From contig OX639973.1 of the NCBI GenBank assembly GCA_951828385.1, forward strand, positions 2,533,200-2,597,199: 64,000 nt of DNA. Reading direction: 5' to 3'. The notes under the pieces are model-generated. The model was not told the DNA's origin. It worked only from the letters and a program-made list of their open reading frames with translations, and did no database searches. This document shows, one piece after another, positions 10,172 to 21,380 of the stretch. Source of the stretch: an uncultured Poribacteria bacterium. GTDB taxonomy: Bacteria; Poribacteria; WGA-4E; WGA-3G. The stretch's first letter is position 1, and every line of letters begins with the position of its first letter. The position numbers and the translations under genes are program-made.

Positions 10172-12145
10172 TCAAAACGCATTGGCAACAATCACCAAGT
10201 CCTGAATATTCACGACACCATCGCCGTTGAGATCGGGTGCCTCCTCCCCCAACGCATTAGCGACAAGCACTAAATCTTGTATATTCACAACACCATCAGC
10301 GTTGACATCCACAGTAGGAGGGGTTTCTAACCCCGATTCTGATTTCAAATAAATCTCACCATCTAAGTCGGAGAGGGTATGCGAGCGTTTATCACCCACC
10401 CCGTTGGCAACTCCAGATACCGCTCCCGGGAACTCGATTGTCTGTTCCGTACCACTGCGGTTATACACCGCCCAACCGTTGGTGAACTCTCGGATGAATA
10501 ACCCTTCGCGGTTCTCATAAAGTTGACCCTTCGTTTCATCACCGCCGATCGGATAACCGAGGGAGTCATCCCAGAACTCCAGCCAGACAGAATGTACGCC
10601 CTTATATGTGATATCCACTCCCCAAAGTTGCTTACTGAATACGCCGCCGTTTTTGAATATCAGATAAGCATCGGAATGTGTCAGTGCGAGTGTTGTCAAG
10701 GAACGCACGACCTTCCATGTCTCAGATGAATCTGGAGGGATCCCCGGATTACCCCCCCCGGATATAGCATTGATGACGGGTTCTCGAAAAGGTGCTTCTG
10801 TTTCTGCCCAGAGGAGTGCGTCTTGGATTTTAGCAATTTCATGATCGTCGTATATAGAATTAGCGCCAGGTCCCGTCTCCAGCCAAACACCATTGATATA
10901 GGGTGCCCATCTCGGAATTTTTGAATGCGTACCCGTACCCGCGTTTACGAGAATTAAGAGGTCATCATCTATCTCACGGATACTCTGCAGAATAGCATCT
11001 CTCGCTGCATATTCTTCCTCAAGAGTTCTATACCCTTCAAGTCTTCGCCCAAGGTCCCAATGGTCGAGGATTATTCCGTCAAACAATCCGCATTGCGAAA
11101 TTGCTAATACCTGATCCTTGACCCATTGCTGCGTCTGAGGTAGCGTGAAATCTAATAATAGTGCTGCTCCCTCTCCCGAGTATTCTTTAACAATATTACC
11201 CTGTTCATCTCGGAGAAACAAATCATCGGAAATATAATTTAACCACATCCCTTTGTCATCCAAGTCGCCTCGGTAATAGACAACAGGCACTAACATCACT
11301 AAATTAGGGTTTAGTGATAACAGTTCGGCACGTCGCTGCTTCGCCTGAAAAATATGATCTATCAATACGGGTTTGGTCCCGTTGGCAGTGCTACGAAGTT
11401 CCCAGTAAAGATATAGATCGTCTGGGCAACAGAAATAAAGATCATGGATTGGGATATTTTCAAATTTATTTTCGTGGATCTCTAAAACGTGTCCCCAAGT
11501 ACATAAAAGAGACGGATAATCACGACTTTGGACACGTTCATAGACTGAAGGGCGTTGAATATCACACACCAAATCATACTCAAGATTTGTAATCTTGGAT
11601 GTATTAATCATGCTAAGATCAACACTAATGTTACGCTTTGTATTCAGGCTTTCGAGATTTAACCCTGCAAGCGGTGAAAAATCCGTAATTCGATTATTGG
11701 CAATATTCAACAAATTGAGATTGACTAACCCTGTGAGCGGTGAAATATCAACAATTTGGTTGTTCGCAAGTTTTAATCCACCTAACCCTGTGAGACCTGC
11801 AAGGGGTCGAATGTCAGAAATCTGATTGTGTGACAAATCCAAAAAAGCAAGTGTCGTAAGTTCGGACAAAGGCGATATATTGCTAATTTCATTCTCTTCC
11901 AGAATAAGGGCATGACAATGGGTTGCGTGTTCTAAGCCTGTAAGATCGACAATCCCTTTGTTTGGCACATCGAGATGCCCTAAGGATTGAAGGTGTGCCG
12001 GTGCTAAGGGCACATGTGCAGGGATGTCAAGTGTTTCCCGGACAGCCTCGCGGAGCATAGGGTCTGGCATCCACTCCTCAGCATGAACACTTATTACAAC
12101 ACATAAACAAAATACTATCAAAAAATATCTCATGTTTATCTTCAT
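10172..12145 (-). CDS. Secreted LRR / hydrolase-like / dockerin protein (intact copy of the local family)
   Basis: A 657-residue protein with a signal peptide (residues 1-22), an internalin-type cap WMPDPMLREAVRE, about five leucine-rich repeats of the NxIxDIxPLxxL type (residues 60-165), a central domain that resembles TIM-barrel glycoside hydrolases of the GHL type (LLDFTLPQTQQW, CGLFDGIILDHWD, LLILVNAG), a C-terminal beta domain (GLFIREFTNGWAVYNRSG) and a type I dockerin pair (DVNADGVVNIQDLVLVANAL, then DLNGDGVVNIQDLVIVANAF). The carbohydrate role is inferred. Related copies lie at 14410-16755 and 17260-19932. A palindromic element is embedded in the linker before the dockerin. Confidence 0.8.
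   Translation of the reverse strand: MKINMRYFLIVFCLCVVISVHAEEWMPDPMLREAVRETLDIPAHVPLAPAHLQSLGHLDVPNKGIVDLTGLEHATHCHALILEENEISNISPLSELTTLAFLDLSHNQISDIRPLAGLTGLGGLKLANNQIVDISPLTGLVNLNLLNIANNRITDFSPLAGLNLESLNTKRNISVDLSMINTSKITNLEYDLVCDIQRPSVYERVQSRDYPSLLCTWGHVLEIHENKFENIPIHDLYFCCPDDLYLYWELRSTANGTKPVLIDHIFQAKQRRAELLSLNPNLVMLVPVVYYRGDLDDKGMWLNYISDDLFLRDEQGNIVKEYSGEGAALLLDFTLPQTQQWVKDQVLAISQCGLFDGIILDHWDLGRRLEGYRTLEEEYAARDAILQSIREIDDDLLILVNAGTGTHSKIPRWAPYINGVWLETGPGANSIYDDHEIAKIQDALLWAETEAPFREPVINAISGGGNPGIPPDSSETWKVVRSLTTLALTHSDAYLIFKNGGVFSKQLWGVDITYKGVHSVWLEFWDDSLGYPIGGDETKGQLYENREGLFIREFTNGWAVYNRSGTEQTIEFPGAVSGVANGVGDKRSHTLSDLDGEIYLKSESGLETPPTVDVNADGVVNIQDLVLVANALGEEAPDLNGDGVVNIQDLVIVANAF
10314..10338. 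repeat. Palindromic element inside the LRR/dockerin gene
   Basis: GTAGGAGGGGTTT then CTAACCCCGATT forms a GGGGTT/AACCCC hairpin. It encodes the SGLETPPTV part of the linker on the minus strand. The paralogues have a shorter linker at this place (ESGTSADVNGDG and ETGSSMDINGDG), so the element looks inserted in frame. A copy with one or two differences lies inside the glycyl-tRNA synthetase gene at 35338-35366. Confidence 0.6.
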
Positions 12146-12437: not shown

Positions 12438-12496
12438 GCGTTAACCTAACAAGTAGATGTATTTTTATCACCGATACTCTACTCATGGAGGTCACT

Positions 12497-13297
12497 ATGA
12501 CACGCCAAAATGATACCGCCTATGGTATCAAACGACTCGAATCCAAGAACGCAAGAGCTGCGATTATTCAGAAGATTTCAGCAGACTTTAATCTTATGCC
12601 TATCGTCGCTGAAGCCTACTATAAACAGATTTCAAGTTACTTTGAGCAACACGCCGATGTGCAACTGACATCCGGGCAAATCTGTTATGAAGCCGTCGCC
12701 GCCGAGGAACCCGCAGGTAAACACATCGCTTTAGCGAGAAAAGTCTCCTGTCGGTTGACACTCAATGCCATTCAGGAGGACTTTGAAGTCTTAGGCACTT
12801 ATGGGCTTGCAGGACTCAGACGCCATCGCATCCTCCGATTGACCCAAGAAGCTTATGACCAAGAGGCCTTGTTGAGTCATGAGGATCTGGCGGTGTTATT
12901 AACCACCAGTCCCGCCACTGTCAAACGCGACATCCGAGCGTTAAAGCAGGCCGGCTATTTCGTGATGACGCGCGGGGCAAAACACGACATGGGCCCCGGC
13001 ACGTCCCATAAAACCCAGATCTTGGAGTTGTATTTCAAGGCGTATACCTTCACCGAGATTGAGCAAAAGACGAACCACTCTGAACGCGCTGTCTGGCGGC
13101 ACTTGAAAGACTTCACACAAGTCGCAACACTGCATCATCAAGGCTTTCCTGACGCACAGATACGGCTCATCACTCACTTCTCCGACCGGCTCATACGCGA
13201 GTATCTCGCGCTGTATAAGGAATACCAGAACACGGACCGAATGACCGGGCTCCTTCACCCAGAGCCAGCGGATCCAAAAAAGGGGGAACTTTCATGA
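12497..13297 (+). CDS. DUF1670 domain protein, first of a tandem pair
   Basis: A 266-residue protein. Start at ATG 12497 because GGAGG lies directly upstream; an earlier ATG at 12485 would contain that ribosome site. The core reads QEALLSHEDLAVLLTTSPAT then VKRDIRALKQ, a helix-turn-helix with wing, followed by TRGAKHDMGPGTSHKTQILE, EIEQKTNHSERAVWRHLKDF (a second HTH) and a third near the C-terminus. I associate this with DUF1670, whose function is not established; DNA binding is the obvious inference. It overlaps the next gene by 4 bases (ATGA), so the two are translationally coupled paralogues. Confidence 0.75.
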   Translation: MTRQNDTAYGIKRLESKNARAAIIQKISADFNLMPIVAEAYYKQISSYFEQHADVQLTSGQICYEAVAAEEPAGKHIALARKVSCRLTLNAIQEDFEVLGTYGLAGLRRHRILRLTQEAYDQEALLSHEDLAVLLTTSPATVKRDIRALKQAGYFVMTRGAKHDMGPGTSHKTQILELYFKAYTFTEIEQKTNHSERAVWRHLKDFTQVATLHHQGFPDAQIRLITHFSDRLIREYLALYKEYQNTDRMTGLLHPEPADPKKGELS

Positions 13298-14181
13298 GCA
13301 AACCTTTGACGCGCACGCAAATCAACGAGAAGAAGTTCAGACGCATCAACGATAAATCGCTACGCCAGCTGCTGATCCATCGCTTTCTCAACGACTATGG
13401 GTATGACAAGGGCGAAGTCACGGCTACCGCTATTGTTGATGATATTCTTACGACCGTTGAAGACTATTTCGTGATTACCCTCCCTTTGGAGAAACTCGCC
13501 ACGGGGGATCAACTCCCTGATGAACGGTTGCTGAGTTATGGACACCTCGTTTGGATGGCTGTACCTATTGAGGAACACCCTGAAAGAGGAAAATCCATCA
13601 TCAAAACGCGTATGAAACCTATCATCCTGACATACCTCGCCACAGAGGATATTGAATCCTTTCGCAACGGTTTTACCTCACGGAAACCACTGCGGATCAA
13701 TCGCTTGGTTCGCTGGTGTCATCAAGCTTATGACCAAGGGGCCTTATTGACACAACTCGACTTAGCCGTCTTGCTCAATGTCTGTGATGCTGTCGTCTGT
13801 GATTATGTCAATGAGTGGCAAAAGACCACTGGCGAAATCCTGCCCACTCGGGGCAATATCCATGATTTATCGGGTGCTATTACCCACAAGAAAGAGATCA
13901 TAACCCGCTATCTTCAAGGATATCTCACCCCGAGTATTGCTGCGAAAACCAAGCACTCTAAAGAAGCAGTTGACCGATACATTCGCGACTATGAGATCGT
14001 CAAAGTCGTTCGCAAGGCAACCGCTGATATTGACAACATCTCACAGATTACACGACTTTCGAGACGCGTCATTTCTCAATATCTCGACCTGATTCCCAAG
14101 CACCAACTCCAAGCCATAGATGCAAACCTCGCCAATTCAGCCGCAAACGATAACGCGACAGAGCAAGGAGAAACCCAATGA
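13294..14181 (+). CDS. DUF1670 domain protein, second of a tandem pair
   Basis: A 295-residue paralogue of the preceding protein, sharing the order of motifs: HQAYDQGALLTQLDLAVLLN, then TRGNIHDLSGAITHKKEI, then IAAKTKHSKEAVDRYIRDYE, then ITRLSRRVISQYLDLIPK. The three HTH-like segments suggest a DNA-binding protein that could act with its partner as a heteromer. Compared with its partner it has a longer N-terminal region. No catalytic motif is visible. Confidence 0.75.
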   Translation: MSKPLTRTQINEKKFRRINDKSLRQLLIHRFLNDYGYDKGEVTATAIVDDILTTVEDYFVITLPLEKLATGDQLPDERLLSYGHLVWMAVPIEEHPERGKSIIKTRMKPIILTYLATEDIESFRNGFTSRKPLRINRLVRWCHQAYDQGALLTQLDLAVLLNVCDAVVCDYVNEWQKTTGEILPTRGNIHDLSGAITHKKEIITRYLQGYLTPSIAAKTKHSKEAVDRYIRDYEIVKVVRKATADIDNISQITRLSRRVISQYLDLIPKHQLQAIDANLANSAANDNATEQGETQ

Positions 14182-14409: not shown

Positions 14410-16755
14410 CTATTTGAGGATTACCATTTTGCGCAGGAAGGACAACTGATCTGCCTGGAGTTGGTAGAAATAGATACCATTCGCAACGCGTTCACCTACT
14501 TCGTTCCTGCCGTCCCAATAGGCGGCACGGTTCTTGGTAACATAATAACCCGGATGTTGATGTCCGAGTTCTAAACGCTGGATAATGCTGCCGCGTGTGT
14601 CATAGATGGTAATCCGCACATCACTCGGATCTGCTAAATGATACGGAATCCACGTTTCTGGGTTGAATGGGTTCGGATAGTTGGCAAGTAACACTGTTTT
14701 TTCTGGGATGAGCGATGCTAAGAGGCGTTGAAGGTTAGCAATACCGCGTTGGAAGGCGATAGAGCCGTCATTTTCAAGTTGTGCCTGTTCTATCCATGCT
14801 TGTATCACTGCAGCATCGGGTGCCCCCGAAATCATAGCGGGTGCGGCAGCCATTTCGCCGCCCAAGTGTTGTGCGATAAGGATGAGGTCAAGGATGTTAA
14901 CAATCCCGTCGCCGTTGACATCGACTTTTGAGTTAGGTGGCCCGGTCTCACCAAGGTATTGCGCAACCAGCACTAAATCCAGAACGTTAACAACGCCATC
15001 GCCGTTGACATCTGCAGATGTGCCGCTTTCTTGTTTCAGATACATCTCGCCATCTAAATCGGGGACGGTGTGTCGCGTGGCAGTAATACCACTGGCGACC
15101 CCTGTCGTTTCCATCGGCAAAGTGATCGTCTGTTCCGTACCACTCCGATTATACACCGCCCAACCGTTAGTGAACTCGCGGATGAATAAGCCTTCAATCA
15201 TCTCACCAGCGGTGTTGACGTAGTGCTGACCTTTGGTTTCATCGCCACCGACAGGGCGACCGAGATCCGCATCCCAGAAATCATACCAATAGTGACTTTT
15301 TTCTGTTATACCTTCAATATAAAGCACATAGCCATCAGAATGTGTAAGACTCATTGTCGTAAAAACGCGCATCCATCTCTGGTTTGTCGGACTATCAGGA
15401 TTCTCGGTTGGAATCCCTTGTGCTTCCAAACAATTAATCTGCGGCTCTCTAAAATTTTTTTCTGACCATAGCAACGTGTCTTCTATTTCAGTTAAGTGTT
15501 CATGGGTGTAGGAACCAATATTAGGGTCCCATCCGGTTTCCATGAAAGTGCCATTGACATAGGGAGCGGAACGCGGGGCTTTGTACTGAACGGTGTTGAC
15601 AAGAATCAGAAACTCGTCGCCAACGGCTTCACGGATACGCCTTAGCATTGACAACTTCGCATCTACCTCTATTTTGGCATATTTCGAGTCTATATCCTCT
15701 ATTCCTGCGCGATTATAAAGTATACTTCTGTCCTCAACCCACCAATCCAAAAAAATGCCGTCGTAAAGTCCGCACTGTGCCACCGCAATCGCTTGCTGAA
15801 CAAAAAAATCTTGTGCACCCGGCTGTGTAAAGTCGATGAGAAAATCTTCATATCCGGGTTCTTGAATGCGATTCCCTGATGCATCTCTGAGCCAATAGGG
15901 CCAATCTTCCGGGTACTGATCAGCAGGTGTTGCTTGGTAGGAGATTACCGGAAGAAAAATCATGTTTGGATTATAGGAAAGGAGCACATCTCGCTCATGT
16001 TTTGCGGATGCTAAATCTCCAACGAGTTTTACACCTTCAGGTGCTACGTACCACCCCATATTAAATATCCGACGAGAATAATATAAATCATGGTATGAAA
16101 GTTTCTCTTCCCAAGACAACTCGGGGAGATTGATAGCAGACTGCTTCTGATAAACGGATGGATAACTGCGATTTTCAAGCCGTTCAGCAATCGGATCGTC
16201 TTCTAAAAGACATACCCAATTCTCTGCGACATCTAATTCCAATATTGGCGAGAAATCGCCTGGATTTCCCGCCACCCTGATAGACTTCAGATTTCTAAGC
16301 TGGAGGAGTGGCGTAAAGTCAACAATCTGGTTATACTGTAATTTTAAGTCTTCTAAGTTCACAAGATTTGCGAGTGGCGTAATATCAACAATCTAATTTC
16401 GGTAAAGTCTTAGCACCTCTAAGGACACTAAACCCGCAAGTGGTGTAATATCAACAATCTGACTACGGCTTAAATTCAGAAAACGGAGATTAATAGCGTG
16501 TTCTAATCCCCGAAGATCTGCTATATCAGATTCAATAACCACCAGTTCACGGAGTTTAGCCATATCCGAAGTGCGCAGCGGTGTTGCATCCGGCAATTGA
16601 AGTTTTTCTCGGACAGCCTCTCGGAGCGCAGGATCCGGCATCCAATCTTCTTCATTTTCTGCATAGACGGAAGTATTATAAACAAGTATGCCTATAACGG
16701 ATAAAAATAGGAACTGAACCCATAACGATTTACATAATTTTTCTTTTATTGTCAT
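14410..16755 (-). pseudogene. LRR / hydrolase-like / dockerin / T9SS-tail protein interrupted by an in-frame TAG
   Basis: The start is ATG 16755 with AAAGGAGA upstream. It encodes a signal peptide, the cap WMPDPALREAVREKL and leucine-rich repeats up to LRLYRN. A TAG at 16393-16395 then replaces the Gln expected in NQIVDI, and the same frame continues IVDITPLANLVNLEDLKL to the end. The second half alone has no ATG start (GTG 16362). The rest has the hydrolase-like domain (LIDFTQPGAQDFF, CGLYDGIFLDWWVE), the beta domain, a complete dockerin pair (ADVNGDGVVNVLDL, VDVNGDGIVNILDL) and a FlgD-like / T9SS type A tail (NYPNPFNPETWIPYHL to KMVILK). Either a point nonsense mutation or a read-through codon; the open downstream frame shows it is recent or tolerated. 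Confidence 0.75.
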
Positions 16756-16771
16756 AAACGAATCTCCTTTC

Positions 16772-16812
16772 TTAAAACGCATTGGCAACAATAACTATAG
16801 TAGAATTAAGAG
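16772..16812 (-). pseudogene. Detached end of a dockerin module
   Basis: On the minus strand these bases read LNSTIVIVANAF then TAA, matching the last residues of the dockerin of the intact paralogue (LVIVANAF). The 19 bases ending at this stop are the same in both genes. No start or body is attached. Its orientation and position fit the missing end of the sigma-fused gene's dockerin, separated from it by the hairpin array. Confidence 0.65.
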
Positions 16813-16854
16813 GGCACTCTCAAACAATTCTTAGTGCTCTCATCGGCCTTGAAA

Positions 16855-17172
16855 GTGCCACAGGAAACCAGCGATCTCCTATGCTACAGAAAAAGTGCCA
16901 CAGGCTAACAACCTATGCTACAGCAAGAGTGCCACAGGAAACTAACGGTCTCCTATGTTACAGAAAGCGTGCCACAGGCTAACAGCCTATGCTACAAGTG
17001 CCACAGAAACCAACGGTCTCCTATGCTACAGAAAGCGTGCCACAGGTAACAGCCTATGCTACAGCAAGAGTGCCACAGGAAACTAACGGTCTCCTATGCT
17101 ACAAGTGCCACAGGAAACCAACGGTCTCCTATGCTACAGAAAGCGTGCCACAAACTAAAAGTTTGTGCTACA
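16855..17172. repeat. Array of nine small hairpin repeats
   Basis: Nine units begin GTGCCACA and end CTACA, starting at 16855, 16895, 16929, 16969, 16998, 17037, 17070, 17105 and 17145. Each has a central stem-loop. Two main stem types alternate: GGAAACC-AAC-GGTCTCC and AGGCT-AAC-AGCCT, and the last is ACAAACT-AAA-AGTTTGT. The stems change on both sides so pairing is kept. The whole 16813-17199 stretch has no gene on either strand. Confidence 0.85.
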
Positions 17173-17202
17173 AATATGTAGGATTAATTCTGAGTTTCAC
17201 TA

Positions 17203-17259
17203 TAAATCTAAGATATTAACCGCACCATCGCCGTTGATATCCATAGATGAACCCGTTTC
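17203..17259 (-). pseudogene. Untranslated start of the sigma-fused gene's dockerin
   Basis: Immediately after the TAG at 17260-17262, the same frame reads ETGSSMDINGDGAVNILDL and then a second TAG at 17200-17202. This is a typical first calcium-binding dockerin repeat, aligned with ADVNGDGVVNVLDL of the neighbouring copy. The first TAG replaces the CAG (Gln) found in the paralogue (YLKQESG). So the dockerin was once part of the protein. Confidence 0.75.
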
Positions 17260-19932
17260 CTATTTCAGATAAATCTCACCGTCTAAATCAGAGAGGGTGT
17301 GATTAACACCAATAGTCCGGCTTGCGACACCGGTGGCTTGCATGGGGAGTTGTATATCCTGTTCCTTTCCGCTGCGATTGTAGACCGCCCAGCCATTGGT
17401 GAACTCACGCATAAATAATCCCTCAACCGCATGTCCGTTAGGATTATGATAAAGTTGTGCCTTCTTGCCCACAGGGCGACCCAACGGGGCATCATAGAAG
17501 TCATACCAATAGTGTTGGTGGTTGTGAAGATGCGATTTACCTTCTATATGCTCCCGCTCATGTCCTGGCCAGATCTCGTATTCATGTTCATGGATGATGC
17601 CACTTACCCCTATATTGTAGCAAACGTAGCCATCGGAATGTGTGAGGCTCAGGGTTGTAATGACACGCATCGTTTGCTGGTTACGCGGGGAATCTGCTGG
17701 CTCAAGCGATATGCCACGCCCTTCAAGCGCATTTATTTGCGGGTCACGCAAATTCTGCTCCGACCATAGCAACGTGCTTTCAATTTCACGGAGTCCAGCG
17801 TGCGTGTAACCTGTATTCTGTGCGTCCGGAATAGCTTCCATGAACATCCCATTAACGTAGGGGGCAGAAAGGGGTGCTGGACGCTGGTGCGTTTCGACGA
17901 TAATCAGAAAATCGTCACCAATAACCTTACGAATACGGCGCACCAGGGATATTCTTGCCGACCCCTCGGCTTCAACACTTCGATAATAAACACCTTTGTC
18001 ATTATTAAGCGTAGCCTGACCTTCCTCCCACTGACCCAAGAAGATACCGTCGTAGAGACCACATTTTGCTACAGCAACGGCTTTCTGAACGAGAATATCC
18101 TGCACGGCAGGGTGTGTAAAGTCTATCAGGAAGTCTGAAGCATCAGCGTAAACTCGAACGCGATTGCCGTTCTTATCTCTTATCCAATACGGCCAATCTT
18201 CAGGATAATCCCCAGGATCGGCATCGGTGTAGTCAAAGCTCACAAGTCTTATAAAGTTAGGATTTTGTGAAAGAAGATACTCTCTTTTCCAATAAGCATC
18301 GTCTATCCTACCAAAGAGCCGAAACCCTTCAGGTGTAGGGTGCCATTGCAGGTGAAACCCCAGTCCACCCCAAAACAGATCGTGATATATGAGTTTCTCA
18401 TCATCGGATAAGTTTGGTAAGTTGAGAATATCGTTGCCCGACCACGCTGCAAAGATCGAAGGGTAACCTCTCTCTTTGATACGAGGGCCTACTGCAATCC
18501 TTGATATATAATCGCCGACCCGAAAATTGCCTTTAATTTTTACAACCTCTAAGTGACGCAACCCATCAAGGGGTGAAAAATCCCTAATATCATTATTCTG
18601 TATTGACAACTTTTTCAGATTGACTAACCCGGCGAGGGGTGAAATATCTTCTATTTCGTTCCGCCAAATGTGTAAAGTCTCTAAACGCGTGAGTGCTGCG
18701 AGCGGGCGGAGGTCTGAAATCTGGTTGCCACCTAAATCAAGAAAACCGAGTTTCGTTAGACCCGACAAAGGAGATATATCCTGAATCTTGTTCTCTATCA
18801 GAACAAGTGCCTGCAAATCGGTCGCATGCTCTACACCTGTAAGATCGGCAATCCCTTTGCCTCGCACATCGAGGCCTGTCAAACGTTGTTGAAGATATGC
18901 TTGGGTCAAAGGAACATCTGACGGCATATCAAGTTTTTCTCGAACCGCCTGTCGCAGTGCGGGATCCGGCATCCAGTATGTCTCCGAAACGCTGAGTGAA
19001 TCCTCCGAGGCATTGGGAGTTGAATCCCGCTCGGCAACTTGTAAGCCAGCACCGCGAGTTTCACTGGCGACAGTACGCCCGATCTGATTTCGTACAGCCG
19101 GTTTTAGGGTGGTATCAAGTACAATGGGTGCCTCAATAATTTCGACCGTAGGTTCAGATGCTGCCTCGAAACTGTAGGGTCTCTGAAAACGGATGAGGTG
19201 TTGATTGCTGACACCGAGCAATAAGGCAACCAAAACCACGGCGGTGCCGACAGCTGCCCATGGGAGCAACGGTTTTGAAGCTGCGGGCGGTGTAAGTCCT
19301 ATATCGGCGACCCGCCGCATGATGTTTTGTTTTACACTTGCCGGTATCTGCACGCTGCTGAGCACTTCTTGAACGAGGGATGCTTCTTCCGCTTGTAACC
19401 GTTTGCGTGCCCGATACAGTCGGTTATGAATTGCGCTTACGGAAACCCCTAAGAACCGGCTAATTTCTTTGACCGTCATTTCGCCGAGATAATGGAGCGT
19501 CATGACTGTCCGTTCACTCTCTGGTAGTTTTGATAGCAGTTTTTTGACGATCTCACGGCGGTGTTCGGATATCGCTGTCTCCGACTGCTCCGATACGTGA
19601 TGGGTATAAGAGGCTTTCTCAATGTCTTCCACAGGTGTGTCCTCCAGCGATTGTGTCGCAAGATTTTTCTTCCGTATCCAATCAATACAGAGCCGGTTTA
19701 CGATGACATACAACCATCCAGCGAATTTATAGGGGTCTTTAAGTGTCGGTAATTTTTTGTACACCTGAAGGAACGTGTCCTGTGTAATCTCCTCGGCATC
19801 GTGAAAATCGCCGACTTTCCGCCACGCAAGGGCGTGAACGCTTTTCTGGTGTTTTTCGACCAAGACACCAAACGCCGCTTCATCACCCGATAATATTTTC
19901 TGAATGAGTTGAACATCGCTTTCTTTTTCCAT
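17260..19932 (-). CDS. ECF sigma factor fused to a transmembrane helix and an extracytoplasmic LRR / hydrolase-like domain
   Basis: One uninterrupted 890-codon frame with AGGAGG 8 bases before the ATG. Residues 9-90 are sigma-70 region 2 (DAEEITQDTFLQVYKKL, KFAGWLYVIVNRL) and 122-182 region 4 (LPESERTVMTLHYL, MTVKEISRFLGVSVSAIHNR). A membrane helix spans about 222-241 (LPWAAVGTAVVLVALLLG). After a low-complexity linker comes the cap WMPDPALRQAVREKL at 320-335, leucine-rich repeats to about 470, the hydrolase-like domain (FLIDFTHPAVQD, CGLYDGIFLGQW) and the beta domain GLFMREFTNGWAVYNRSG. The outer half resembles the two neighbouring secreted proteins. The likely role is transcription control by an extracellular carbohydrate or surface signal; that is inference. 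Confidence 0.85.
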   Translation of the reverse strand: MEKESDVQLIQKILSGDEAAFGVLVEKHQKSVHALAWRKVGDFHDAEEITQDTFLQVYKKLPTLKDPYKFAGWLYVIVNRLCIDWIRKKNLATQSLEDTPVEDIEKASYTHHVSEQSETAISEHRREIVKKLLSKLPESERTVMTLHYLGEMTVKEISRFLGVSVSAIHNRLYRARKRLQAEEASLVQEVLSSVQIPASVKQNIMRRVADIGLTPPAASKPLLPWAAVGTAVVLVALLLGVSNQHLIRFQRPYSFEAASEPTVEIIEAPIVLDTTLKPAVRNQIGRTVASETRGAGLQVAERDSTPNASEDSLSVSETYWMPDPALRQAVREKLDMPSDVPLTQAYLQQRLTGLDVRGKGIADLTGVEHATDLQALVLIENKIQDISPLSGLTKLGFLDLGGNQISDLRPLAALTRLETLHIWRNEIEDISPLAGLVNLKKLSIQNNDIRDFSPLDGLRHLEVVKIKGNFRVGDYISRIAVGPRIKERGYPSIFAAWSGNDILNLPNLSDDEKLIYHDLFWGGLGFHLQWHPTPEGFRLFGRIDDAYWKREYLLSQNPNFIRLVSFDYTDADPGDYPEDWPYWIRDKNGNRVRVYADASDFLIDFTHPAVQDILVQKAVAVAKCGLYDGIFLGQWEEGQATLNNDKGVYYRSVEAEGSARISLVRRIRKVIGDDFLIIVETHQRPAPLSAPYVNGMFMEAIPDAQNTGYTHAGLREIESTLLWSEQNLRDPQINALEGRGISLEPADSPRNQQTMRVITTLSLTHSDGYVCYNIGVSGIIHEHEYEIWPGHEREHIEGKSHLHNHQHYWYDFYDAPLGRPVGKKAQLYHNPNGHAVEGLFMREFTNGWAVYNRSGKEQDIQLPMQATGVASRTIGVNHTLSDLDGEIYLK

Positions 19933-20231
19933 GAGGTGCCCTCCTAAAGAACAGTTAGGTCGTGACCGTATCCACCAATATCGAATCTTGTAAAATGACG
20001 CGGTCCGATACGGTTCATACCCTCTATAATTAAAGACGAAACTTTGGGCTGAAAATTCGCATAATTAGAAAAAAATCTGGAATTTGTGGATTAAGACCTA
20101 CAAGGGATTTGCGTAAGTCCTGTTATTAATGAGACAATTTGTCAGCGAAAAAGGTGCATAATTTTAGTCCCGTAGGTGCGGTTTCCTAACCGAACTTGAC
20201 AGATTACACTCCTTGTGATAAATTGTTCTCC
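19933..20231. other. Divergent intergenic region with solo transposon end and palindrome
   Basis: The gap between the sigma-fusion gene and glycerate kinase. It holds a single end of the 2869-3003 element (TGCGTAAGTCCT, 20110-20121) without a partner, and a palindrome of the GTAGG family at 20172-20194 (GGTGCGGTTTCCTAACCG). No gene is visible. Confidence 0.5.
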
Positions 20232-21380
20232 ATGAAAATTGTTGTTGCACCTGATTCATTCAAGGGAAGCGTGAGTGCACTCGAAGCTGCGAATGCGATT
20301 GAACAAGGGCTGCGTCGCGTGTTTCCTGATGCTGTTATTGACAAAATCCCGATGGCAGACGGTGGCGAAGGCACTGTGCAGTCGCTCGTTGATGCTACCG
20401 GGGGGCACCTCCAAACACAACGCGTGCTTGCACCATTGGGGAACGCGGTGGACGCACAATTCGGTATCCTCTCAGACTCGGAAACCGCTGTCATTGAGAT
20501 GGCATCCGCTTCCGGTCTGACGCTTGTCGCGCCGCACGAACGGGACCCATGCCGCACCACTACCTACGGCACCGGGCAGCTCATCCACACCGCTCTGGAA
20601 GCAGGGTGTAGACGCTTAATCATCGGTATTGGCGGCAGTGCGACGAACGATGGCGGAGCCGGTATGGCGGAGGCACTCGGGGTTCGGTTACTGGATGCAA
20701 ACGGCGAACAGATACTGCGCGGCGGTGGGGGGCTCGGAGAATTGGCATCAATAGATGTATCGGGTTTACATCCGGCGATTGCTGAAACAGATACCGTTGT
20801 CGCTTGTGATGTCAATAACCCGTTGACAGGTGCAGATGGCGCGGCACACGTCTATGGTCCACAGAAGGGTGCCACGCCTGAAATGATTGAGACGTTGGAC
20901 GCACATCTTGCACATTTTGACAGCGTTTTGACGCGGACACTCGGCAAATCTTTTAACGACATACCGGGAGCAGGCGCTGCCGGTGGACTCGGTGCCGGAT
21001 TGATGGCGTTCCTCAATGCAGAATTGCGACTCGGTGTTGATATTATGGTTGATGCTGTTAACCTCAGAGAACGGGTGAAAGGGGCTGCTATCGTTTTTAC
21101 GGGTGAGGGTCAACTGGATTTTCAGACCGTGTTTGGGAAAACGCCTGTCGGTGTTGCGAAGGTCGCGAAGACGCATAATATCTCTGTGATCGCGATTGCG
21201 GGGGGTATCGCTGAAGGTGCCGAAGCTGTCTACGATGCTGGGATTGATGCGATGTTAGGCATCGTACAAGCACCGATGGAATTAGCGGAGGCGGTTGCAG
21301 ACGCGTCGCGGTTGATCGCTGACACGGCGGAGCAGGCTGCACGATTGATTGCTATTGGTCATAGCGGGTTGGAAAGGTAA
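20232..21380 (+). CDS. glxK: Glycerate kinase (GlxK/GarK family)
   Basis: A 383-residue protein beginning MKIVVAPDSFKGSVSALEAA, the hallmark start of this family; an upstream TTG at 20196 would add an unrelated stretch. Other family segments: PMADGGEGTVQSL, TYGTGQLI, GGSATNDGGAGMAEALG, FTGEGQLDFQTVFGKTPVGV. The enzyme phosphorylates D-glycerate with ATP in the cytoplasm, linking sugar-acid breakdown to glycolysis. It stands upstream of a sulfatase and a galactonate-dehydratase-like gene in a probable sugar-acid neighbourhood. Its last codons (HSGLER) lie in a tandemly duplicated 54-base unit. Confidence 0.9.
   Translation: MKIVVAPDSFKGSVSALEAANAIEQGLRRVFPDAVIDKIPMADGGEGTVQSLVDATGGHLQTQRVLAPLGNAVDAQFGILSDSETAVIEMASASGLTLVAPHERDPCRTTTYGTGQLIHTALEAGCRRLIIGIGGSATNDGGAGMAEALGVRLLDANGEQILRGGGGLGELASIDVSGLHPAIAETDTVVACDVNNPLTGADGAAHVYGPQKGATPEMIETLDAHLAHFDSVLTRTLGKSFNDIPGAGAAGGLGAGLMAFLNAELRLGVDIMVDAVNLRERVKGAAIVFTGEGQLDFQTVFGKTPVGVAKVAKTHNISVIAIAGGIAEGAEAVYDAGIDAMLGIVQAPMELAEAVADASRLIADTAEQAARLIAIGHSGLER

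Follow-up and report, generated by a model that had tools for sequence, protein, structure and literature searches.

Membrane-held tails on ECF sigma factors are already known from ECF52 and IutY, and expansions of WD40-tailed ECF factors from the Planctomycetes. In Pseudomonas putida, IutY (ECF243) is a sigma/anti-sigma hybrid whose periplasmic stub of ~50 residues is a direct RseP substrate (PMC5411451). The actinobacterial groups ECF52 (SCO4117), ECF48 and ECF53 carry a zinc-finger anti-sigma domain before the membrane helix, and ECF52 is confined to the Actinobacteria (PMC5826349, PMC8999054). The hallmark of ECF57 is a conserved cysteine pair that joins sigma region 2 to region 4 (PMC8999054), and the Planctomycetes, Gemmataceae included, hold expanded ECF families with C-terminal WD40 and other repeats (PMC8999054, PMC8567305, PMC11032199). 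In Clostridium thermocellum, RsgI acts as a separate anti-sigma factor with a self-cleaving periplasmic domain, and RseP takes part in its proteolytic cascade (PMC12203970). In the open-access literature searched, Poribacteria genome papers included, no description of Poribacteria sigma factors was found. Here, a sigma factor fused to a membrane helix and a large outer part is described from a window of 64,000 nucleotides, the whole stretch of DNA analysed, from an uncultured Poribacteria bacterium.

A single-frame fusion of sigma factor, membrane helix and outer part

The fusion gene runs uninterrupted from ATG to TAG (Table 1). The first-pass annotation had read it as one frame joining sigma regions 2 and 4, a membrane helix and an outer part, and the Pfam matches, the hydropathy and the open frame agree with that reading. 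The domain search and structure prediction that it had proposed for residues 1-890 likewise recovered the sigma regions, the leucine-rich repeats (LRRs) and a GHL15-like barrel. Regions 2 and 4 occur without region 3, as in the ECF group (sigma-70 group 4; NCBIfam TIGR02937, 1.2e-32), and the closest solved structures to the sigma part are SigW and RpoE. An AlphaFold2 model built from 45 sequences has a mean pLDDT of 77, with the LRRs and barrel mostly above 85 and residues 214-314 below 50.

Table 1. Features of the fusion locus and its surroundings (window coordinates)
Feature	Positions	Strand	Description or basis
ECF sigma - TM - LRR - GH168/GHL15-like fusion	17260..19932	(-)	890 aa
Sigma-70 region 2, residues 24-90	19663..19863	(-)	Pfam PF04542 Sigma70_r2, 2.4e-16
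Sigma-70 region 4, residues 127-179	19396..19554	(-)	Pfam PF08281 Sigma70_r4_2, 9.7e-17
Linker, residues 185-222 (38 residues)	19267..19380	(-)	Family consensus ...LGxFQxxxxLTENIMREVAxIKP...KPxxPW
Predicted single membrane helix, ~residues 223-241	19210..19266	(-)	Mean hydropathy 2.27; model helix 230-241, low confidence
Conserved juxtamembrane segment, residues 242-290	19063..19209	(-)	RFQxPYSFEAxSExTxEIIDAPIVL...KPxxRNQxG; pLDDT <50
Internalin-like leucine-rich repeats, residues 320-470	18523..18975	(-)	Pfam LRR_4, 8e-20; structure comparison
GH168/GHL15-like barrel + C-terminal beta domain, residues 476-890	17263..18507	(-)	GH168 structure and profile matches
Residue 633, Gly in DGIFLG	18034..18036	(-)	Putative catalytic Asp in stand-alone relatives
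Dockerin-repeat relic after fusion stop	17200..17259	(-)	ETGSSMDINGDGAVNILDL, then a stop; from sequence, with similar relics at three other loci (L098, L108, L110)
Proximal family-type promoter	20032..20066	(-)	AATTATGCGAAT - 13 - TTTCGTCTTT; matrix score 21.1
Distal family-type promoter	20128..20163	(-)	AATTATGCACCT - 14 - TTGTCTCATT; matrix score 25.3
Stand-alone LRR-GHL15-dockerin-sorting-tail gene	14410..16791	(-)	Broken by in-frame TAG at 16393-16395
Secreted LRR-GHL15-dockerin protein	10172..12145	(-)	657 aa

Neither a zinc finger nor another anti-sigma domain was recognised in the linker by Pfam or in the paralogue alignment. The membrane helix on which the annotation depended is predicted as a hydrophobic stretch from residue 223, its modelled counterpart being of low confidence, and a hydropathy scan of the protein revealed no second hydrophobic stretch. 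The juxtamembrane segment that follows is probably disordered, as judged from the model; its core columns are more conserved than those of the helix in an alignment of 74 paralogues, among which the DNA-contact helix of region 4 is also strongly conserved.

The same order of sigma factor, helix and LRRs, which the annotation had asked to see in other genomes, occurs in full-length, single-frame orthologues from ~10 other Poribacteria assemblies (L088-L093, L097-L099, L102, L112), which are part of a larger set of matches at 49-85% identity in many other Candidatus Poribacteria assemblies. In the full-length orthologues, the shared C-terminal end ...DLDGEI(Y/F)(L/V)K directly precedes the stop codon. 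Together with ~54 sigma-TM paralogues, these orthologues exclude the assembly join between residues 180 and 320 that had been named as a possible source of error.

An outer part resembling GH168 enzymes

In structure comparisons, residues 312-470 resemble internalins (Z ~23, rmsd 1.8) and residues 479-890 resemble GH168 endo-fucanases (Z ~24, rmsd 4.0, 315 aligned, 14% identity), with a Z of 24 to 9jom placing the latter in the (beta/alpha)8 fold of GH168/GHL15. The Pfam match to GHL15 covers residues 582-848 and lies just above threshold (5e-6; 27.2 bits vs a cut-off of 27). A profile of the stand-alone relatives also matches GH168 chains by sequence, PbFucA at 1.9e-7.

The nucleophile of MeGH168 is Asp167 (PMC12210190). 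In the profile alignment, the DGIFMD motif of this enzyme aligns with the last Asp of DGIFLD in the stand-alone relatives, and the Asp-Glu spacing is 69 in the neighbour (206/275) vs 70 in MeGH168 (167/237); on the strength of alignment and spacing, the DGIFLD Asp is the putative nucleophile. The fusion lacks the full GH168 catalytic pair, Gly633 replacing the Asp, with the acid/base equivalent Glu699 kept. The putative catalytic Asp is present in 50 of 51 stand-alone copies vs four of 15 fused ones (Fisher 1e-8, a P value that overstates independence because the fused sequences are related), but the fused copies vary at this position, with D, G, S, N or A. Another four frames, short ones carrying G or S, were scored as broken or cut-off pieces of fused genes; with them included, the fraction retaining Asp is 4/19. 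Judged from these residues, the LRR-barrel outer part appears to be mostly catalytically dead. The earlier suggestion that the outer domain senses a carbohydrate is plausible, since the barrel is nearest to GH168 endo-fucanases and its putative nucleophile is lost.

Similarity of the outer part to two secreted neighbours, also claimed in the first-pass annotation, holds for both: the LRR and hydrolase parts share 42% identity with 10172-12145 and 48% with 14410-16362. The second neighbour had been taken as one frame (14410-16755), but it is interrupted by the TAG at 16393-16395 and is either a pseudogene or the product of a base error. A reassignment of TAG to Gln would restore this neighbour's frame and join the dockerin relic to the fusion, but was dropped on the sequence at this locus: TAG closes the neighbour's sorting tail at 14410 as expected, and the relic reaches a second stop after 19 codons.

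The stand-alone relatives carry signal peptides and usually a dockerin or a sorting tail. Of 19 fused frames, 18 lack the dockerin, and in several, this gene included, remnants of it lie 3' of the stop. These comparisons indicate that the outer part of the fusion is captured from a secreted enzyme, its dockerin cut off by the stop codon and left behind as a relic. In other assemblies, sigma-GHL15 and stand-alone GHL15 genes again lie together (L086, L089, L091, L097, L098, L099 and L108). Such proximity is not confined to GHL15: at 14 loci (a tandem WD40 array being counted once), a stand-alone relative of the sensor lies at most 15 kb away, always on the strand of the sigma gene. The claim that this outer domain set beside stand-alone paralogues is unusual was therefore not borne out, given these 14 loci and ~54 such fusions with varied outer domains.

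Several further observations concern the same region. Degenerate repeats (gtagcataggagaccgttggtttcctgtggcac) occupy positions 16860-17180 between the fusion gene and its neighbour, and two adjacent DUF1670 proteins, one of which also matches HTH models, are encoded on the plus strand at 12485-14181 between the stand-alone genes. Outside the Poribacteria, Chloroflexi MAGs (L117, L119-L124, L129, L134, L138) contain relatives of the GHL15 part at 46-50% identity, from ~residue 476 only, and many of these MAGs share a sample series with Poribacteria MAGs.

A family of tethered sigma factors and its promoter motif

The source genome (6.66 Mb, one contig) contains 74 genes with this type of sigma factor over the first ~180 residues, four ordinary ECF genes being left out of the count. 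In ~54 of them a helix lies at residue 220-227, and these ~54 have the linker, helix and juxtamembrane segment in common, with end domains that differ. Among 71 C-terminal parts scanned, 27 are VPS10/BNR propellers and 15 are WD40; others are Kelch, regulator propellers, an M16 domain, LRR, GHL15 or a carboxypeptidase-regulatory domain, and a few kinds of tail gave no match. Nearly all copies are long, intact frames; several are short or lack the helix. Mapped onto a tree built from the sigma parts, the sensor labels require a minimum of 32 changes vs 46.9 when shuffled, and starred sister groups carry different sensors. Thus, sensor types are clustered on the tree yet have been swapped repeatedly. 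The closest partner of the gene in the window on this tree is the other LRR-GHL15 copy (100/98), and a thioredoxin-tailed gene joins the two next (100/95).

The tails of the members without a helix include thioredoxin/AhpC, methyltransferase, M61 or S9 peptidase domains (genes at 5432300, 5437861, 5483349, 5491341, 4027610 and 5663216 of the source genome) and the DNA polymerase beta clamp. Two sigma factors without a helix are fused to the DNA polymerase III beta sliding clamp, at 5525786-5527510 (-) and 5385260-5386642 (-), one copy with all three clamp domains, and full-length fusions of this kind (~575 aa, 61-83% identity) occur in ~30 other Poribacteria genomes. This arrangement recalls the clamp-dependent late transcription of phage T4. 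The source genome also holds tandem arrays of sigma fusion genes, with 12 at 1522863-1573148 and five at 3143378-3159276.

In a wider census of 79 Poribacteria genomes, a profile of the linker, helix and juxtamembrane segment gave hits in 65. Every one of the 57 genomes sampled from the organism's own family was positive, with 1 to at least 58 copies each; two sister families have 0-3 copies, and a third sister family and the families at greater distance in this census yielded none. The sister-family proteins retain the sigma factor, the helix and the FQxPYSxxA core ahead of propellers, WD40 or carboxypeptidase-regulatory domains, which places the origin of the design before its expansion.

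Upstream of the family genes lies a common ECF-type motif, AATTATGCA[AC]C followed after 16-18 bases by CGTC[AT][CT]T (ATGCA[AC]C-N16/18-CGTC). With the trained motif, 60 of 78 upstream regions score above the 99th percentile of shuffled regions, and about a quarter of the family genes are without it; none of the four ordinary ECF genes exceeds the shuffle level. Matches to the strict pattern number 27 across the genome vs 0 in the backward control. In the genome stretches scanned, 59 sites precede family sigma genes and 25 lie elsewhere, several of the latter before exported proteins beside a sigma gene, such as a secreted M16-like protein adjoining a sigma-M16 fusion. In other species, 38 of 65 family sigma genes score above 15 and 27 below it, vs 0/65 for both reversed and shuffled sequences; the matrix was trained on family upstream regions of the source genome, and these genes are outside the training set but homologous. 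In the source genome, a strict family-type site at 1305471 precedes three consecutive small genes that look STAS/anti-sigma-antagonist-like by eye.

The window contains two motif sites in total, one of them scored in two spacings, and both lie upstream of the fusion gene (Table 1); the proximal site is also found before the orthologues L086, L099, L102, L106, L108 and L110. The stand-alone neighbours were considered as direct targets and rejected, there being no family-type promoter before either in the window. A two-hexamer sigma-70 scan of 16800-20300 returned promoter-like sites no more often than in shuffles.

Proposed function and relation to known systems

The reading that we favour, with somewhat better than even confidence for the scheme as a whole, casts the fusion as a cell-surface signalling device contained in one protein, with proteolytic release of the sigma factor and positive autoregulation. 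Its own helix would anchor the N-terminal ECF sigma factor to the cytoplasmic membrane, on the inner side. The single helix is predicted to lie N-in, given that a sigma factor has to be in the cytoplasm and that the outer part has homologues with signal peptides. The LRR-barrel outside would bind a ligand, the likeliest candidate being a (sulfated) polysaccharide or a glycoprotein from sponge or seawater, upon which a protease would trim the outer part down to the conserved juxtamembrane stub and an RseP-type intramembrane protease would then free the sigma part. The freed factor would transcribe from ATGCA[AC]C-N16/18-CGTC promoters, its own gene first, motif recognition and targets being predictions. 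By analogy, IutY is cut by Prc and RseP, with Prc needed only if more than ~50 periplasmic residues remain (PMC5411451). Proteolytic release is favoured here since IutY is trimmed and RseP-cut, the stub in the fusion is ~50 residues and a site-2 protease gene is present. The genome has one full-length M50 gene of this type, which lends weak support, as RseP-type proteases are near-universal; its zf-HC2 anti-sigma genes lie away from the fusion. The sigma-linker-helix-stub cassette has been copied ~54 times in this genome with varied outer domains, which would couple many inputs to one promoter type. A bolder extension, for which we hold only a tentative and minority belief, is that the ~60 motif-bearing sigma genes recognise one shared promoter type, each other's included, forming a many-input, one-output surface receptor array whose sensors are continually captured from the organism's own secreted proteins.

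Other explanations were weighed against this scheme. An uncut, tethered sigma factor might recruit RNA polymerase in the membrane in the manner of ToxR or CadC, with the outer domain acting by conformation or clustering. The short, conserved tether and the lack of a recognised anti-sigma domain or zinc finger between sigma factor and helix suit this idea, which we nonetheless consider unlikely: a sigma factor has to bind core polymerase and usually dissociates once initiation is over, IutY, the fused membrane sigma factor that has been studied by experiment, is a substrate of Prc and RseP (PMC5411451), and an outer stub more conserved than the helix is easier to reconcile with a processing or docking site than with a passive tether. 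It is quite improbable that the cassette is mainly selfish or spreads neutrally by duplication and tail swapping, leaving many copies, and perhaps the fusion gene, without a sensing role. Nearly all copies are long and intact, the orthologues of the fusion are intact in ~10 assemblies, the promoters are conserved, and so are the DNA-contact and juxtamembrane residues across different tails; in favour of the idea stand a copy number ranging from 1 to at least 58 among related genomes, the several copies that are short or lack the helix, and the broken stand-alone neighbour.

The outer part might instead be a working, cell-bound polysaccharide hydrolase, with the sigma factor switched by product or turnover. 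E699 is kept and four of 15 fused copies retain Asp, but this protein has Gly at the position of the putative nucleophile and 11 of 15 copies have lost the residue, which makes this reading very improbable. Least of all can the fusion be attributed to an assembly or base-calling artefact: the in-frame TAG in the neighbour indicates that base errors are possible, but an identical order in ~10 other assemblies and ~54 paralogues refutes the artefact.

The ~50 further tethered switches in the same genome suggest a large, modular and hardly described design for sensing the outside in sponge-dwelling Poribacteria. An uncultured sponge-symbiont clade has made the fused, membrane-held ECF sigma factor its dominant design, with up to at least 58 copies per genome; several outer domains clearly come from secreted proteins, and one at least has changed from an enzyme into a probable binder. 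The family makes testable how new sensors arise, whether and how specificity is kept among dozens of similar sigma factors and what Poribacteria perceive of their host, and a defined promoter motif is gained for an organism without genetics. If true, the shared-promoter array would be a sigma-based counterpart to expanded receptor families.

The fusion was rejected as a member of ECF52, ECF57, IutY or RsgI on the features that define them. Like IutY, it combines an N-terminal ECF sigma factor, one membrane helix and an extracytoplasmic regulatory part in one polypeptide. Unlike IutY, which depends on an outer-membrane receptor and carries its anti-sigma domain in the periplasm, it bears LRRs and a GH168-like barrel; Pfam and NCBIfam identified LRR and GHL15 there and no FecR-like periplasmic anti-sigma domain of the IutY/ECF243 kind. 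With ECF52, ECF48 and ECF53 it shares an ECF sigma factor with a membrane helix, an outer part that binds carbohydrate in ECF52 and probably does so here, proposed proteolytic release and suggested positive autoregulation. However, it belongs to another phylum, has dozens of paralogues and lacks the zinc finger, Pfam having found no zf-HC2-like domain between sigma factor and helix. The two cysteines of ECF57 are not matched in the Poribacteria family, where Cys82, inside region 2, is the sole conserved Cys over 74 paralogues. The tested features thus set the family apart from ECF52 and ECF57, and it may fall under an existing ECF group number.

The barrel shares its fold (residues 479-890) and a weak profile similarity with the GH168 endo-fucanases (MeGH168, PMC12210190; PbFucA, 8rg3; the Fun168 series), but it has Gly in place of the putative Asp nucleophile, only 13-17% identity, and is joined to LRRs, a membrane helix and a sigma factor. 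Compared with the WD40-tailed ECF factors of Planctomycetes, the Poribacteria tails also include VPS10/BNR propellers, GHL15, M16 and Kelch. The SigI/RsgI system likewise comprises several paralogous membrane regulators of sigma activity with interchangeable outer carbohydrate sensors, GH-derived ones included (PMC12203970). The N-terminus of the Poribacteria fusion, however, is a sigma factor and not an RsgI domain binding a separate SigI, so that the sensor is fused to the sigma factor itself.
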